DNA of 64,000 nt from Planctomycetia bacterium. GTDB lineage: Bacteria; Planctomycetota; UBA8108; SXIK01. This document shows, one piece after another, positions 41,886-49,805 of this stretch (its first letter is position 1; every line of letters starts with the position of its first letter). The stretch lies in assembly GCA_005772855.1 (NCBI GenBank), contig SXIK01000219.1:1-64000 (forward strand). The letters are read 5' to 3'. The position numbers were made by a program, and so were the translations under genes. The notes beneath the pieces were generated by a model. It had not been told where the DNA came from. It saw nothing but the letters and a program-made list of their open reading frames with translations, and did not search any database.

Positions 41886-44591
41886 ATGCAGCCAGCGAGC
41901 AACCCCATGCCTTCGACGCCAGCGGAGAACCGTGTTCGGGATCTGCTCGAACAGGCCGAGGTGCTATACAAGGGAGATCGCCATGCAGAGGCGGAGCCGC
42001 TCTTGCGTGAAGCCCTTCAGCTCGCAGAGCCGCAGTTGCCTCAGAAGCAAACGCAAGTGGCACTGGTGTGCGACCGCCTGGGCTACAATTGCCTTCGACG
42101 GGACAACCTCGGCGAGGCAGAGTCTCTGTTTCGAAGAGCCCTTGCGCTGCGTCGTGACGCCGTGGGTGTAGGGGACGTCGAGACGGCGGCAAGTTTCAAC
42201 AACCTGGGGCTGTTGCTCAGGGTCCAGGGCCGGCTGGCCGAGGCGGAGGTGCTTCTCCGGAGGGCACAGGAGGTATTCGAACGGCTGCTCGGCAGGGAGC
42301 ATGAAAAGTCGATTCGCGCTCTTACGAACTTGTCGCTCCTGGCTCTGGATCAATGCCGTCCGCAAGATGCTGAAAGATGCCTCCGGGCCGTCCTGGATTG
42401 CCGAATTCAGCCTGGAAAGTACCGCGACATGGAGAGAAGTCGATGCCTTTACCGCCTGGCGAACATACTCTGCGCAGAGGAGAGGTTCTCGGAGGCAGAG
42501 CCTCTTTATCGAGAAGCGGTCACTTGCCTGGGCGGGGTCTCCGGGGAATCCAGCTACGAGGCTGCGAGCGTGAGGTTGTCGCTGTCACGCTGCTTGCGGG
42601 CTCGCGGACAGTTGAGCGACGCTCATGAATGCTTGATCGAGGGCCTTCAGATGATCTCGGGCACCTTCGGAGATCAGCACCTCCACTCCGCGGCGGGCTT
42701 TGTCGAGCTGGGAGTGATTCTCGAAGCCCAGGGAAAGCTCGGCGAGGCAGAGTCCTACCTTCGCAAGGCGCTCGATATTCGGTTGCACACGCTCGGCGCT
42801 TCGGCCGTGGAGACAGTGGAAGCGCAACATGTCCTCGGAGCGATGCTGCTGGCGCAAGGAAGGCTCATGGAGGCCGAGGAGCTGCTGCACGCTGCAGCCG
42901 AGGGCTTCGAGACCTCCAGACTTTACGTGAGCTACGAAGGTCTCGAGCGGGCGGCGGTTGGCTTTGCGCGATCGCCCCTGTCGAGGTGGGCCGTCTGTCT
43001 TGCCAGGTGCGGAAGGGTTGGCGAGGCCTGGGCAGCGCTGGAGCGTGGTCTCGCGCGAGGGCTTCTGGACGAGGTCGCCGCACGCCGAGACCGCCGGCTC
43101 GACTCCGAGGAGGCAGCGCAGCTCCAGCTCCTGCGCACGGAGCTCGTGCGGCACGCGGCGTCAACGTCTCAAGACCTTCGCGAGGCCGAAGTCGCAAGAA
43201 CGCGGCTTCTCGAGTTTGAAGAGAAGCTGTCAGGGAGGTACGGCACGGCTGCGGGTGAAGTTCACTCCGTGGACCGGATCCAGTCGCGGCTCCGGGTCGG
43301 CACCGCCCTGGTGGTTTGGTTGGATCTGCCTCACAGGCCTCTGTCCCGGCATCCCATCGGAGAATCGTGGGCTTTTGTCCTGCCGGCGAGGGGAGAACCT
43401 CTTTGCGTGGCGATTCAAGGAGGAGGCCAGGAGGGCGCATGGAGACCAGAAGACCACAACTTGGCGGATCGAGTCCGTCATCTGCTTGCGCGCCCGCCGT
43501 ACGGACAGAGCGCAGGGGAGCTTGACCGTCTCCTCCATGAGCTGCGCGAGCAGAGGCTCAGCCCTCTGGAGCGTCTGCTCGAAAAGCAGGAGGCATTTCA
43601 CCCTGTTCGAAAGCTCATCGTCGTTCCCATCGACGCCATGGCGGGGATTCCGCTGGAGGCGTTGTCGGAAAAATACGAGGTAACCTACGCGCCCTCGGGC
43701 ACCTTGCTCGGCGCCCTTACGAAATCAGGAGTGAGCCCTCGCGCGAGCCCCGGGCCCGAGGTCCTCGTCGTGGGAGATCCTGCCACGGGACCCGGGGGCA
43801 CCTTCTCCTCCGGCCTGGGCCCACTTCCGGGAGCAAGGGCCGAGGCGGAGGCGATCGACTGCATCGCCCGCAGCCTGGATTCGCCCTCCAAGGGACGCTG
43901 CGACAAGCTGATCGGTTCGGACGCCAGCGAAGCCTCTCTGGACCGGCTCGCGCAGAGTGGTCGGCTCGCGACCTATCGCTACCTTCACTTCGCGGTCCAT
44001 GCGCTCGTCGACGACGCCGCTCCGCTCCGCTCCGAGCTCCTGCTGGCGCAGGATCAGCTCCTCGATCCAACGGAGCAAGCGATCTCCGGCCGCCCTATTT
44101 GCCGTGGGAGTCTGACGGCGGGAAAAGTGCTGCGCACGTGGAGCCTCAACGCGGAGCTGGTCGTCCTGAGTGGTTGCCAGACGGCGCTGGGAAAGGGGCT
44201 TGGCGGAGAAGGCACGATCGGCTTCGTGCAAACATTCCTCATAGCTGGAGTGCGCAGTGTCCTCGTGAGCCTCTGGAAGGTTGACGACGTTGCCACGTCG
44301 CTGCTCATGTCGAGGTTCTACGAGGGAATCCTGGTGCGCCGCCTCGCGAAGTCCGAAGCCCTGCGGGAAGCGAAGCGGTGGCTGCGAAACATGACTCGCC
44401 AGGAGGCGGCTCGTCACATCGGCGAGTTGGGCTTGCTCGGGGTATCTCGAGGTGCTTGTGACGAATCGGCGGTCTCGAGTGACTCGGCCGACCTGACCGG
44501 AGGTGTCAGTCGCGAAGACCTGCCCTTCGATCACCCGTTTTACTGGGCCGCCTTTGTGCTCTTCGGCCCGGGTGATCGGCTCGGCCCCTGA
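41886..44591 (+). CDS. TPR-CHAT protein (caspase-fold peptidase-like)
   Basis: A 901-residue cytoplasmic protein. About 15-370 are tetratricopeptide repeats of the kinesin-light-chain type (AEPLLREALQLAE, AEVLLRRAQEVFE, AESYLRKALDIRL). A helical linker follows. About 560-900 form a CHAT domain, a caspase-like fold, with the presumed catalytic histidine in YRYLHFAVHALVDD and cysteine in VVLSGCQTALGKG, both present. The C-terminal DHPFYWAAFVLFGPG is the standard end of CHAT domains. CHAT proteases in other bacteria cleave specific partners in defence or signalling. It converges on an operon that encodes a sigma factor and a DUF4384-like protein. Start ATG 41886, with GAGG 13 bases upstream. Confidence 0.9.
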   Translation: MQPASNPMPSTPAENRVRDLLEQAEVLYKGDRHAEAEPLLREALQLAEPQLPQKQTQVALVCDRLGYNCLRRDNLGEAESLFRRALALRRDAVGVGDVETAASFNNLGLLLRVQGRLAEAEVLLRRAQEVFERLLGREHEKSIRALTNLSLLALDQCRPQDAERCLRAVLDCRIQPGKYRDMERSRCLYRLANILCAEERFSEAEPLYREAVTCLGGVSGESSYEAASVRLSLSRCLRARGQLSDAHECLIEGLQMISGTFGDQHLHSAAGFVELGVILEAQGKLGEAESYLRKALDIRLHTLGASAVETVEAQHVLGAMLLAQGRLMEAEELLHAAAEGFETSRLYVSYEGLERAAVGFARSPLSRWAVCLARCGRVGEAWAALERGLARGLLDEVAARRDRRLDSEEAAQLQLLRTELVRHAASTSQDLREAEVARTRLLEFEEKLSGRYGTAAGEVHSVDRIQSRLRVGTALVVWLDLPHRPLSRHPIGESWAFVLPARGEPLCVAIQGGGQEGAWRPEDHNLADRVRHLLARPPYGQSAGELDRLLHELREQRLSPLERLLEKQEAFHPVRKLIVVPIDAMAGIPLEALSEKYEVTYAPSGTLLGALTKSGVSPRASPGPEVLVVGDPATGPGGTFSSGLGPLPGARAEAEAIDCIARSLDSPSKGRCDKLIGSDASEASLDRLAQSGRLATYRYLHFAVHALVDDAAPLRSELLLAQDQLLDPTEQAISGRPICRGSLTAGKVLRTWSLNAELVVLSGCQTALGKGLGGEGTIGFVQTFLIAGVRSVLVSLWKVDDVATSLLMSRFYEGILVRRLAKSEALREAKRWLRNMTRQEAARHIGELGLLGVSRGACDESAVSSDSADLTGGVSREDLPFDHPFYWAAFVLFGPGDRLGP

Positions 44592-44710
44592 TGGAGCGTC
44601 GGACGGCTCCGGCGCTGTGGTCTCCTGAGCGGCGGGACGATTATCGTGCTCTCGGTGCCGCGGGGCAGGAATCGGTGGCGGAGTATCTCCTCTGGACGGG
44701 CGGGTGGTAC

Positions 44711-47700
44711 TCAGCAGGGATAGGAGTCACAGGGAAACGGACCCTCGACGGGTGGAATCGGGTCGCGGCCGCAGCCCGTCTGCCCCTCGACTGGGCCAGG
44801 GCTTGGGGGGGTCGAATTGCCCAGAAAGAGGTAGTTGAGGATGAAGATTCCGTCTGACACATCCACCTTGTTGTCGTCATTGGCGTCGGCGGCAGCATGG
44901 CAAGGCAAGGCGCGGGTACCGAGGTAAAGCCAGCCGAACACCGTGACTGCGTCACTGAGGTCCGTCTCGCGATCCCCGTTGGCATCGGCCCTGTAAAAAA
45001 GGATGAAGTCCCCGATGTCCGCAATGCCACCCCCGCCGACGTTGAGCTCGTCGATCTCGAGGATCACGGTCTCTTCGCCGGTGCCTCCCGAGAAGCCGAC
45101 GTAGCCTTCGCTGGCATTCTCCTCCACGGGTTCGGTCTCGATGTCGAGAACGGGCGTGCCGCCTGGAGGGCCGATTCCGCCTCCGCCCCCGCCTCCACGG
45201 TTGGGGCGCAGCCAGGCGCGGACGTGCCCGTGGTCATAGAGCACCTGCACGTGAATTCCTTCCGGATCGAACACATCCGGCAGGCGATCGTCGGGCACCC
45301 CGAATTGAAGGTTGCGCTGAAGGCTGTGCACGGTCGCATTCGCATCGACTGCCACGTGATACGGTCCCGTGCCGGTGCCGAGAGGGCCCGCGATCGGATC
45401 CCAGCCGGACACATTGACGCCATCGCCGTCGTTCACGACCTCGCTCGTGTGCCTCAGATCGATCTCCACCGCGATGCTGTTGCGTGAAGCATCGGCCGTG
45501 CGCAGGACACTTTCGTCCCGCGATTGATTGATCTTCGCAAAGCCGAGCCCATCGGCAGCGTCGCCGCGCCGGAAATCGAGGAGGCCCGGATTGTCCTTCT
45601 GCGCCCTGTCGATACCCATCAGGAACAGCGTGAGCCCGTGACCCGGAGCACCGCCCGGCCCATCGCCCGCCTGGTGAGCGTTGTACCTGGCGAAGACGTC
45701 GAACTCGAGCAGGAAAAAACCCCTGAGGTCGAGGGGACGGTTCCAGTAGGCAGCAGTCGCGGCATTTTGGCCGCTGCCTTGAGGGTCGTTGCGAAGGTTC
45801 GTGATGCGCAGCCGGTTCTCAACAACCTTAGGCTTGAACGTAGCGCTTGAGCTGGTGCACGTCCAGCCCACAGGGCAGTCGCCTTCGAGGTCGGCGTCGA
45901 AGTCGAATCTCCCGAGCGGCTTGACGACCTCCCCTTCAACGTACTTGGGCACAATGGGCGAGGGAAAGCCGCGCGAGTAGCGGTCCCAGGAGATCACCTG
46001 CGCCTCGCAGCCGAGCTCAGAGCTTGAGGCGACGCCGACGAGCATCGTCCGGGGTGGTTCGTACCACGCAAACGAGCCCAGCGCACGCCACGAGCCCGGG
46101 CTCCCATCCCGAGAAGCGTAACCGTAAAACGAGTTGCCCCTCCGCACGAGTCGTAGCCATGGCGCGAGGTTTCGAGAGTCGCCCTCCACCTGGACCCTCG
46201 GGTCCACCGAGACGGGGTTGCAGGAAGCCGCAAGCGGTTCGACACCAAAGACGTCCTGCCACCAGATGAAATTGGGTTCCTCGACACCGCCCTGCCCGCC
46301 GGTCTTGTGGCGGAGCCCGATCCTGGGTCCTGGTCTGCCGCAGGTCAAGTCCTTCGCGGCTTGATTGAAGGTGAAAAAGTAAGCTGACTCCGGCGAGCAA
46401 TCCCACCTGGCCATGAGGCCGAACTTCCCCGTCGCAAGGTCGAAATCGGAGAAGCGAGCCTCAACTGTGAAGTCCCCCTCAAGAACCTCGTAAACGAAAT
46501 GAAACTGATCGCCACCGTTTCCAATCGTCGTTCCTCCGCCAAGGGTCGTGTAGACGTCGTCCGTCGGATCCGCAGTTCCGTTCGTGTTCAGGGAGATCGA
46601 TCCGGGCGCGCAGGGGCCGCCCCTGCCGATATTGTGTGAGTTTTGAAAGACGCCGAGGGGGCCTGTCGGCAGATCTTGAAAATAAAGCGCCCGAGGGCCA
46701 TCCGTTTCGGCGGTACCGGCGCGGCCGGTGACCAGCAGGGAAGTGCCCGGGGGACGTTGCACCGAGTAATGAACCCCGTTCCCCAACAGGTTGCCGGGCA
46801 CTTGCCAGGTGATCTTCACGCCCACTGGATCCGTCTCGAACGGCGGCTCGAGACGCTCTCCATCAAGCACGAGCGCTCTGAACCGTACTGTCTGCGTCGC
46901 CACACCACTGGAGTGGTGTTCGCTGTTCGCGAAGCCGACGAGAAGTCTCTGCGGGGCATTCTGGCCCCAGTCCTCGGCGTGGTCCTGAGTCCAGTTCGCG
47001 TCATCCCGCGGATCGAGGCGCCCATCCATCATGGCCTGCGTGTGGGCGTGCCAGCCCTGGATCACCGTGCCGCGTCGGGTGAGTCGGAAGCAGAGGGGGT
47101 GAGGCACGGTGCCCGCGATCGGTGCCTCGAAGAGGCCGCCGCTCTGGCATGCAAGGTGGAAGCGCCTGCCAGCCACCCGGGCGGCGTCCTGGAGGTCGGG
47201 AAGGTGGTCCTGGATCATGGTGAAACGGGAGCAAGTTTCGAGAGTCTCTCTCGCCATGAGGCCGAACTTGCCCCAGCGTCCCTGGCCCGTCGAGTGCTTC
47301 CTCGAGAGGATGCAGACCGAGACATCGAAGTCGCCCTCTATCCGGTTGTACGCGAACTCAAAGCTGTCACCCCCCTCCCAGATATCGCCGCCGGTTGAGC
47401 TCGTCGACTGATACTCCCGGGGGAGAATGGTCTGTGTTGTGCCGCTCTCTTCACCCCGGTCGGCGCCGACAACGCGGTGGTTGGAGAAGTCGATTCCCGG
47501 CGGCATGGGCGGCGGAATGAGCGGAGTCGGGAAAAGCAAGCTCGTTGTGCCGCCACTGGAGATGTCGAAGACGTTGGCGGGGCTCATCGCGGTGGCGCGC
47601 AGCTCCTCGCAGACAAGGTAGGAGGTTCTCGTGTCGAAGCTGGCTCCCGAAAGCGTCACCACGTGGCTCGGGCTCGGGCAGAAGTAGTCGGTGTCGAGGA

Positions 47701-48436
47701 CCCTTCGGGTGAGGACCGGCAAGTTCGGACCCTTGAGATCAGTCGTCGCGCCCAGAATGCGCACGAGGGGGTTTCCGGTGGTGGTGATCTTCTGGCCATC
47801 AGGCGTGGTCAGTGCAAGGCGGAACGCGAAGTCGCCGATCCCATCCCACACGAGCGCGGTGAGGCGATTCACGCCCGGCTCGAGCACGGCGACGGGACGC
47901 TCGATGCAGTCGGTGAAGAGTCCCCGGCACGTGCTTGTGTTTGCAATGAGGCCCGTGTTGAGCCAGACCTGGATCGAATCGTCGCTTGCGAGACAAACGT
48001 TGACAGGTAGCGGAGCTCCGGTGAGGTTCTCGACGTACGTCACTGCGATTGCCAGGATGAAGTCATCCACGAGACCACGGGAGTCCAGGTAGCTCTCAAA
48101 ATCGACGACGTCCGGGTCGGGCCCGAGGTCCAGGGCGACAAACTGGGGTTGGCCCACGCCTCGGTACTCGAGGCTGTGCGCAGTGCCACCAAAGTCAATG
48201 TCGCTCCAGACAGTACCGACGACCGGGTTCTCTTGCCGGATGATGTGCGGCGCGACCCAATTTTCGAGCATCGTGTGAGCGCCCCCGCCCGTGCAGTCGT
48301 TGGCCTGGAGCGGAAGCAGGCAGGCCCACTGGTCGGCTTGAATAAAGCCATTCGGATTCTGAGCGACGACCTGGCCGCATCCGACCAGCAGAAACAGAAA
48401 TCCCAGTGCCCACGAGTGCTTGTAGGCTGGACTCAT
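44711..48436 (-). CDS. Giant secreted lectin-like and dockerin-like protein
   Basis: A 1241-residue exported protein. The N-terminus (WALGFLFLLVGCGQVVAQ) is a signal peptide, possibly a lipoprotein signal (LLVGC). A PA14-like or similar beta domain covers about 30-230. Two concanavalin-like (DUF1349-type) domains follow, each with an EGDFxVxxxxxxF...GKFGLMAR pattern (about 360-530, 640-830). A legume-lectin-like domain covers about 860-1120 (LTLFLMGIDRAQKDNPG), then a glycine-rich loop. The C-terminus is a dockerin-like pair of calcium motifs (ADANGDRETDLSDA, ADANDDNKVDVSDG, YLFLGNSTPPSPGP). A surface or extracellular carbohydrate-binding role is likely. It follows the DUF4384-like gene by 48 bases, with GGAG before the ATG. 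Confidence 0.8.
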   Translation of the reverse strand: MSPAYKHSWALGFLFLLVGCGQVVAQNPNGFIQADQWACLLPLQANDCTGGGAHTMLENWVAPHIIRQENPVVGTVWSDIDFGGTAHSLEYRGVGQPQFVALDLGPDPDVVDFESYLDSRGLVDDFILAIAVTYVENLTGAPLPVNVCLASDDSIQVWLNTGLIANTSTCRGLFTDCIERPVAVLEPGVNRLTALVWDGIGDFAFRLALTTPDGQKITTTGNPLVRILGATTDLKGPNLPVLTRRVLDTDYFCPSPSHVVTLSGASFDTRTSYLVCEELRATAMSPANVFDISSGGTTSLLFPTPLIPPPMPPGIDFSNHRVVGADRGEESGTTQTILPREYQSTSSTGGDIWEGGDSFEFAYNRIEGDFDVSVCILSRKHSTGQGRWGKFGLMARETLETCSRFTMIQDHLPDLQDAARVAGRRFHLACQSGGLFEAPIAGTVPHPLCFRLTRRGTVIQGWHAHTQAMMDGRLDPRDDANWTQDHAEDWGQNAPQRLLVGFANSEHHSSGVATQTVRFRALVLDGERLEPPFETDPVGVKITWQVPGNLLGNGVHYSVQRPPGTSLLVTGRAGTAETDGPRALYFQDLPTGPLGVFQNSHNIGRGGPCAPGSISLNTNGTADPTDDVYTTLGGGTTIGNGGDQFHFVYEVLEGDFTVEARFSDFDLATGKFGLMARWDCSPESAYFFTFNQAAKDLTCGRPGPRIGLRHKTGGQGGVEEPNFIWWQDVFGVEPLAASCNPVSVDPRVQVEGDSRNLAPWLRLVRRGNSFYGYASRDGSPGSWRALGSFAWYEPPRTMLVGVASSSELGCEAQVISWDRYSRGFPSPIVPKYVEGEVVKPLGRFDFDADLEGDCPVGWTCTSSSATFKPKVVENRLRITNLRNDPQGSGQNAATAAYWNRPLDLRGFFLLEFDVFARYNAHQAGDGPGGAPGHGLTLFLMGIDRAQKDNPGLLDFRRGDAADGLGFAKINQSRDESVLRTADASRNSIAVEIDLRHTSEVVNDGDGVNVSGWDPIAGPLGTGTGPYHVAVDANATVHSLQRNLQFGVPDDRLPDVFDPEGIHVQVLYDHGHVRAWLRPNRGGGGGGGIGPPGGTPVLDIETEPVEENASEGYVGFSGGTGEETVILEIDELNVGGGGIADIGDFILFYRADANGDRETDLSDAVTVFGWLYLGTRALPCHAAADANDDNKVDVSDGIFILNYLFLGNSTPPSPGPVEGQTGCGRDPIPPVEGPFPCDSYPC

Positions 48437-48484
48437 ACCCGGACTCCAGACGGTCCTGGTGAATCTTGGACCCTTGTCAAATTA

Positions 48485-49186
48485 TTACGATTCATGGACG
48501 AAGGTCAAAGCCTGAACTTCGAGTTCTGCGTGGCCGCGAAGAGCGGAAAGGGCGCCCTCGAGCGTCGCCTCGTGTGACGCCACGTTGGCCCGGGCTGTCC
48601 TGGCCGCCTCATCGATGATGGTGCGAAAGTCGTCCGCCGTGCGGGGTGTCGCGCTTGCAAGCATTACGAAGGATTCCGTCCCCGTGCTCTGGTCAAGCCG
48701 ATAAGGTCCCAGGCGGGATGGCCCTGGAGCACAGGTCTTCGCCTGCGAGCTCACGGGCACGAGCACAAGTGCGCTGGTGAGCATCGCGACGAAGACCGTC
48801 GCCTCGCGTTCGGGGCTCCAGTGGATCACCACGCGGTCGCCGCTCCTGAACCTCGTCTCGTGGGCCCCGCGAAGAGTGCCCTCGTGCGCCAGGGCGAGGC
48901 GGGCCCCTCGCAGGAGCGGTGTGGTGGCTCTCTGCGCCTCGTCGACTCGCTCCGCGATCCAATCGCCAGCGGACCGGGCCGCCGCCTCCGTCGCGCTCTT
49001 GAGGCGCTCGAGAAGGCCCGGCGCCCGGGCTTGAAGCTCGGCGTCGACTCGGTCGAGCGCGCCGTGCAACGCGGTCAGGTCCCTCGGGGCCTGGAAGAGG
49101 TTGGGGGAACGTCGAACTGCCTGGCCCCACTTCCGGAGGAGGGCCGCCAGCGCCGGGTCGTCGAAGTCGTCATGTTCGGTCGTCAT
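48485..49186 (-). CDS. DUF4384-like protein encoded with an ECF sigma factor
   Basis: A 233-residue protein. The first 100 residues are helical and acidic/arginine-rich (DDPALAALLRKWGQAVRR). A hydrophobic strand or helix lies at about 130-150 (EATVFVAMLTSALVLVPVSS). The segment around it, SGDRVVIHWSPEREATVFVA followed later by GTESFVMLASATP, resembles the DUF4384 fold often found with caspase-like peptidases; this assignment is tentative. The gene begins one base after the sigma factor stop (TGA C ATG), so it is translationally coupled and may modulate that sigma factor. It does not look like a zinc-type anti-sigma factor (no HxxxCxxC). Confidence 0.6.
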   Translation of the reverse strand: MTTEHDDFDDPALAALLRKWGQAVRRSPNLFQAPRDLTALHGALDRVDAELQARAPGLLERLKSATEAAARSAGDWIAERVDEAQRATTPLLRGARLALAHEGTLRGAHETRFRSGDRVVIHWSPEREATVFVAMLTSALVLVPVSSQAKTCAPGPSRLGPYRLDQSTGTESFVMLASATPRTADDFRTIIDEAARTARANVASHEATLEGALSALRGHAELEVQALTFVHES

Positions 49187-49187
49187 G

Positions 49188-49805
49188 TCAATTCACGCCC
49201 TCAATTCCTTTTGCCTCCAAACAGAGTCGCAAGTCCCCCATGGCACGCACCATGCGGTCGCGTAGCGACGATTCGGCCAGCTTCAGGGTTGTCGCGATCT
49301 GACGCTTTGAACGTCCATCGGCGAAGTGGCTCCAGAACACCGATCGAGAGATCTCATCAAGTCCTCCCAGGCAATCGCGCACGGCGATGCGCTGCTCCTC
49401 CAACACAAGAGGGTCCGGGGAATCCACGTCGGCTGCCTTCGACGGTACGACATCTTGCCACAGGGCATCATCCGGGAAAAGCGCCTCCAGACTCGAGGCG
49501 TGGATACCTCGCCCCTTTTGCCTCCAGTGACTTGCGAGCGCGTTTTGGGCCGAGCCGAAGATGTAGCGACGCCAGTGGGTCATGCTCGTCTCCGCTGGCC
49601 CCGAGCCGTTCCGCACAGCGCGATAGAGGGAGACAAATACCTGTTGAGTCAGCTCATCGGCGTCGGAAACGGGGACGCGCTTCCAAAAAAAACGGTAAAT
49701 CGGGTCCCAAAACCACTCCACCAGGGCATCGAAGGCAGACCGTTCACCCGCCGCGAGATCCTGGACCAACTTCAAGAATTGCGGTTCCTGCTCACCCGGA
49801 CCCAT
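49188..49805 (-). CDS. ECF-type RNA polymerase sigma factor
   Basis: A 205-residue sigma-70-family factor. Region 2 is at about 25-75 (FDALVEWFWDPIYRFFWKRV, DADELTQQVFVSLYRAV). Region 4 is at about 140-200 (CLGGLDEISRSVFWSHFADG, KRQIATTLKLAESSLRDRMV), a helix-turn-helix that reads -35 DNA. The ORF track adds 53 residues of improbable composition; ATG 49805 has GGGAA just upstream and gives the family length. It heads a three-gene unit with the DUF4384-like and lectin/dockerin genes. No CxxC or HxxxC anti-sigma factor is adjacent. It is likely to regulate its own operon. Confidence 0.88.
   Translation of the reverse strand: MGPGEQEPQFLKLVQDLAAGERSAFDALVEWFWDPIYRFFWKRVPVSDADELTQQVFVSLYRAVRNGSGPAETSMTHWRRYIFGSAQNALASHWRQKGRGIHASSLEALFPDDALWQDVVPSKAADVDSPDPLVLEEQRIAVRDCLGGLDEISRSVFWSHFADGRSKRQIATTLKLAESSLRDRMVRAMGDLRLCLEAKGIEGVN

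Follow-up and report, generated by a model that had tools for sequence, protein, structure and literature searches.

The closest described counterpart of the locus presented here belongs to type III-E CRISPR, in which the TPR-CHAT protease Csx29, once activated by RNA, cuts Csx30, an inhibitor of CASP-sigma, and this cut is proposed to lift the inhibition (PMC10028731). A second family for comparison is that of ECF systems with zf-HC2 anti-sigma factors and regulated proteolysis (RseA/DegS, RsiW type), which our locus resembles in that the regulator gene stands directly after the sigma gene. The succession of sigma gene, anti-sigma gene and further gene in one operon is how a sigma factor and its regulon are commonly arranged, and we know of very few TPR-CHAT proteins with a known substrate. 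A protease-controlled sigma/anti-sigma switch is as such already a known kind of device. What interests us here, more than the putative lectin of the locus, is a recurrent CRISPR-independent CHAT module and the matching compartments of its components.

Four genes form the locus in the window, by which we mean the whole 64,000-nucleotide stretch of planctomycetal DNA that was analysed (Table 1). All four open reading frames were found exactly where the first-pass annotation had placed them, and so were both spacings: 1 base separates the sigma stop codon from the ATG of the 233-aa gene, and 48 bases separate the latter from the 1241-aa gene. The CHAT gene is convergent with this sigma operon, and no terminator or promoter pattern was seen between the convergent CHAT and 1241-aa genes. 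The view that no described system has this composition was too strong, because Csx29/Csx30/CASP-sigma already pairs a TPR-CHAT protease with a cleaved sigma inhibitor (PMC10028731).

Table 1. The four genes of the locus, in window coordinates.
Feature	Position	Strand	Supporting match
TPR-CHAT caspase-like protease, 901 aa	41886..44591	+	PF12770 E 9e-55, TPR E 1e-38
1241-aa secreted protein, dockerin-like C-terminal tail, gene 3 of sigma operon	44711..48436	-	ORF
233-aa regulator, helical N-terminal part and DUF4384-like beta-sandwich	48485..49186	-	
ECF-type sigma factor, ~205 aa from ATG, ORF open to 49964	49188..49805	-	TIGR02937 E 5e-12

The sigma factor reaches 45.9 bits against TIGR02937, above the curated cut-off of 42.9, with the Pfam sigma regions remaining sub-threshold; it contains only the sigma2 and sigma4 regions, as ECF factors do. 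The convergent gene encodes what defines a TPR-CHAT protease, namely a TPR array and a CHAT domain with an intact His-Cys dyad. Counted from the ATG at 41886, the dyad consists of H705 (codon 43998-44000) and C764 (codon 44175-44177), which are invariant in an alignment of 11 proteins and kept in 78-80 of 87 CHAT domains. The protein has neither a signal peptide nor a hydrophobic N-terminus, and none of the four proteins gave a significant match in PADLOC-DB.

With the Csx29/Csx30/CASP-sigma system the locus shares a TPR-CHAT protein, a regulator and an ECF sigma factor that are encoded together and cytoplasmic, where Csx30 binds sigma and the window regulator is predicted to do so. Unlike in Craspase, the window regulator carries a DUF4384-like domain and shows no homology to Csx30 in a search of PDB chains, which returned no significant match and a single sub-threshold one to an unrelated chain (E 0.39). 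CRISPR-like direct repeats are absent from positions 30000-63999, the 34 kb around the genes, no cas genes occur among the annotated neighbours, and no Cas7-11-like gene was noted in the window. Nothing in the window module points to an RNA signal, again unlike Craspase. Given the lack of nearby repeats and of a significant PDB match, we propose that the module would work like the Csx29 system without belonging to it. The comparison with the zf-HC2 systems is similarly two-sided. Four relatives (L140, L135, L118, L116) carry zf-HC2 and a transmembrane helix (TM), and the zinc-finger part of L140 weakly matches PDB chain 3hug_B (E 0.014), which we take to be the anti-sigma factor of the SigL-RslA complex. 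The window regulator, however, has neither an HxxxCxxC motif nor a TM, and the candidate protease is a caspase-like CHAT rather than DegS, RseP or PrsW.

The first-pass annotation had described the 233-aa protein as DUF4384-like and suggested it as the regulator of the sigma factor; the domain and the tie to the sigma factor are both supported. Pfam gives no match to PF14326 (DUF4384) at E <= 1. Profile-profile comparison with 48 DUF4384 domains from the genomes examined gave 92% probability (E 5.7e-7), aligning aa 113-181 with columns 1-80 of 80 and ranking the protein 7th best of 1127 neighbourhood proteins, while a sigma protein as negative control reached 0.8%. The similarity is equally clear when the protein is aligned with its paralogue L003. 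Residues 11-88 form a helical N-terminal part and residues 91-232 a DUF4384-like beta-sandwich, which is Ig-like in the AF2 model; the pLDDT is 78 overall with a six-sequence alignment (58.6 with two sequences) and ~90 for residues 91-232. Against known structures the model gave only generic Ig-like matches, the best being RbmA (E 1.4e-3). A structure of the middle protein unrelated to DUF4384, which had been named as an outcome that would count against the proposal, did not emerge, though the domain lies below Pfam detection. The protein is devoid of a transmembrane helix, of the HxxxCxxC motif and of a zf-HC2 match, and has one Cys in total. No homologue was recognisable in 59 relatives, only the paralogue in its own genome. 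This paralogue (L003, 7226-8983) has a membrane helix and is followed by a Ser/Thr kinase gene, with no CHAT nearby. In relatives, PF14326 occurs fused to kinases or to a caspase-like domain beside TPR-CHAT (L060, L107, L108, L130); the window version instead stands alone as a small soluble protein that has diverged beyond the reach of the Pfam model, with its DUF4384-like domain joined to a sigma-linked N-terminal part.

This N-terminal part ties the regulator to the sigma factor. Residues 13-55 match an in-frame C-terminal extension of the orthologous, 46% identical sigma factor of a sister genus (G001, L064), with 43% identity over 51 columns, a value reached in 0 of 2000 shuffles. A part that is separate in one genome and fused in another is a classical sign of partnership, showing that the sigma factor and the 233-aa protein are most probably partners. 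Together with the 1-base spacing, the fusion makes a strong case that the two belong together, with the 233-aa protein as a candidate anti-sigma factor in the general sense. The lack of the zinc anti-sigma motif speaks against reading the locus as a sigma/anti-sigma/CHAT module.

The same orthologue raises a different possibility. The DUF4384 part is missing from it, and no DUF4384 or CHAT gene lies in its neighbourhood, so that a conserved CHAT tie of this particular sigma finds no support; additionally, the window CHAT is convergent, lies outside the operon and stands 4 kb from the regulator, with a 3.7-kb gene in between. Both facts argue against the module and fit the reading that sigma and the 233-aa protein are a true sigma/anti-sigma pair in control of the secreted protein, with the convergent TPR-CHAT as an unrelated neighbour. 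We regard this as somewhat unlikely, because the facing arrangement returns elsewhere. At L070, which holds the closest homologue of the window CHAT (36-47%), CHAT faces a gene whose TM product is a DUF4384 candidate of low score (E 0.0024) and which stands after a 126-aa HTH fragment resembling sigma region 4; L066 and L130 are likewise facing. Proximity of DUF4384 and CHAT is moreover far above chance, the window genome holds only three CHAT genes, and the window CHAT and the 233-aa protein both lack export signals, as the concordance of compartments described below predicts.

The proximity was assessed in 40 DUF4384 regions, a phylum-wide sample of 60 CHAT regions and 20 control stretches, for which local profiles of sigma, CHAT, kinase and DUF4384 were made. 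The first-pass annotation had proposed to check genome neighbourhoods for recurrent co-occurrence of CHAT with the sigma/DUF4384 pair, and this is indeed what we find, in counts above control and at further loci. A same-strand sigma gene lies within two genes of CHAT at 12 of the 60 sampled CHAT loci, whereas among control genes the figure is 12 of 294 (p 1e-4), and every sigma gene within this distance of a sampled CHAT shares its strand. Of 30 DUF4384 cases, 8 have a CHAT domain no more than 5 kb away, where the CHAT density of the same genomes would predict 0.62 (p 3e-7); the evidence for a DUF4384-CHAT partnership is statistical. Sigma, a DUF4384-like protein and CHAT occur together at six other loci (L065, L066, L068, L140, L096, L100). 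L065 combines CHAT and sigma with a TM and DUF4384-like protein, L068 combines them with a protein of zf-HC2, TM and DUF4384, and L066 has a sigma gene and a zf-HC2-kinase-TM-DUF4384-like gene facing CHAT. L140, from another family, is an operon of overlapping frames that runs from sigma through a zf-HC2/TM/DUF4384-like gene to CHAT. Most CHAT-sigma pairs have an HxxxCxxC or zf-HC2 anti-sigma motif in the gene that follows sigma, and the C-terminal parts of the encoded proteins vary (TPR, fn3-like, DUF928-like, carboxypeptidase-regulatory-like, DUF4384-like), suggesting a broader sigma/anti-sigma/CHAT module in which the sensor or docking end can be DUF4384 or one of several other domains. Against a general module stands that about 75-80% of the 60 sampled CHAT genes have no sigma nearby, and that a contig scan with the window CHAT found only four distant loci, from the cyanobacteria Symploca and Trichodesmium (two loci) and from Tsuneonella, where no sigma gene lies close to CHAT. 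For a partnership of the window CHAT with the window 233-aa regulator the evidence is moderate.

Three further arrangements were observed. In the window genome, a single leftward series of genes at L060 (5301-10560) encodes a kinase-TM-DUF4384 protein, a dockerin-tailed protein and a TPR-CHAT that is exported. Directly downstream of CHAT in L127 (5943-8999) is the gene of a 1018-aa protein that begins with a sigma domain and also has a membrane helix and a long C-terminal stretch. In the sigma/anti-sigma/CHAT operons of L135, L145, L156 and L174, the gene after CHAT is S8 subtilase-like, which Pfam confirms for L135 and L174.

The third gene of the operon had been annotated as a lectin/dockerin protein. 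The secreted ORF stands, while the lectin label finds no support: no Pfam family scored above cut-off (best DUF1349, E 0.04) and no lectin HMM matched, and the dockerin is a sub-threshold tail, which nevertheless recurs in at least 150 places of the 5.03-Mb genome. The proteins that share this tail, located at 44711-45010 in the window, differ widely in size and form a very large and presumably exported group. A dockerin-tailed neighbour is therefore expected often and tells little about the regulatory genes, and the idea that the sigma set specifically links a signal to lectin expression is not supported. The same abundance, together with more than 30 CHAT genes in some genomes of the phylum, could suggest a chance cluster of families that are numerous in these genomes (ECF sigmas, TPR-CHAT, dockerin-tailed proteins). 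With sigma-CHAT and DUF4384-CHAT proximity both above control rates, and DUF4384 rare in the genomes examined, we consider such a coincidence highly improbable.

Next to recurrence, the compartments of the partners agree. In all 26 readable CHAT/regulator pairs, a membrane helix or export signal in the regulator or DUF4384 protein coincides with an N-terminal export signal in CHAT, or both are lacking (Fisher 6e-7). Both partners are membrane-bound or exported in 18 pairs (L060, L065, L066, L070, L096, L100, L101, L102, L107, L108, L116, L118, L121, L130, L135, L136, L140, L161) and soluble, i.e. cytoplasmic, in 8 (window, L098, L145, L146, L156, L166, L172, L174). No pair is discordant; L068 was omitted as its CHAT N-terminus is unreadable (Fisher 4e-6 if counted as discordant), and L127 because it is the sigma protein that carries the TM. 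The calls combine hydropathy with reading by eye from putative start codons, in pairs chosen by the analyst, and some of the loci are related by descent. Under a strict automatic criterion, an export-type N-terminus is present in only 34 of 63 sampled CHAT proteins, so that the agreement is not trivial. The window sigma, the 233-aa regulator and CHAT are all predicted to be cytoplasmic, while most relatives have a membrane-spanning regulator and an exported CHAT. This agreement in CHAT/regulator pairs is a new observation.

It would equally arise if CHAT were the output, i.e. if the sigma factor, released by another signal, simply induced CHAT as an effector against stress or in defence, in the same compartment in which that signal is perceived, and to that extent it counts against the module. 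The many sigma to anti-sigma to CHAT operons, sometimes continued by an S8 subtilase, fit such an output. Yet CHAT lies outside the regulator's operon in the window, L066, L070 and L130, and L107 (9609-11774) encodes DUF4384 and a caspase-like domain in one protein, a fusion that suggests a physical partnership and makes CHAT as a mere output unlikely. The L107 fusion adjoins a TPR-CHAT gene, so that two caspase-fold proteins stand there with DUF4384.

We thus favour, with a probability of roughly 0.4, that the locus is the local form of a recurrent CRISPR-independent module of ECF sigma factor, anti-sigma-type protein and TPR-CHAT, in which CHAT frees sigma. The co-translated 233-aa protein would keep the sigma factor off, its N-terminal helices binding sigma and its DUF4384-like domain being the part that the TPR-CHAT protease, present in the same compartment, recognises. 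Upon a signal sensed by the TPR region, the protease would cut or remodel the 233-aa protein, and the freed sigma would transcribe its own operon, including the gene of the secreted 1241-aa protein.

In the open-access literature we found no pairing of DUF4384 with CHAT or sigma, an absence that is no proof that the module is undescribed; the CHAT/sigma-inhibitor papers there concern Craspase only, and an earlier description in ECF re-classification work is possible. The recurrent three-part sets in related genomes suggest that caspase-like proteases throw transcription switches outside CRISPR too. One may go further and speculate that such switches exist throughout the phylum, independent of CRISPR and with a compartment-matched CHAT cutting the regulator, so that Craspase would be the special case in which a guide RNA replaces the TPR-sensed signal; a generalisation this wide is doubtful. 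A partner gene that recurs, with its product in the same compartment, offers a concrete, testable substrate for many of the abundant TPR-CHAT proteins, and the data likewise hint at what DUF4384, whose function is unknown, may do. If true, the logic of Craspase, the release of a sigma factor by a caspase-like protease, would be a general mode of signalling rather than a CRISPR oddity.
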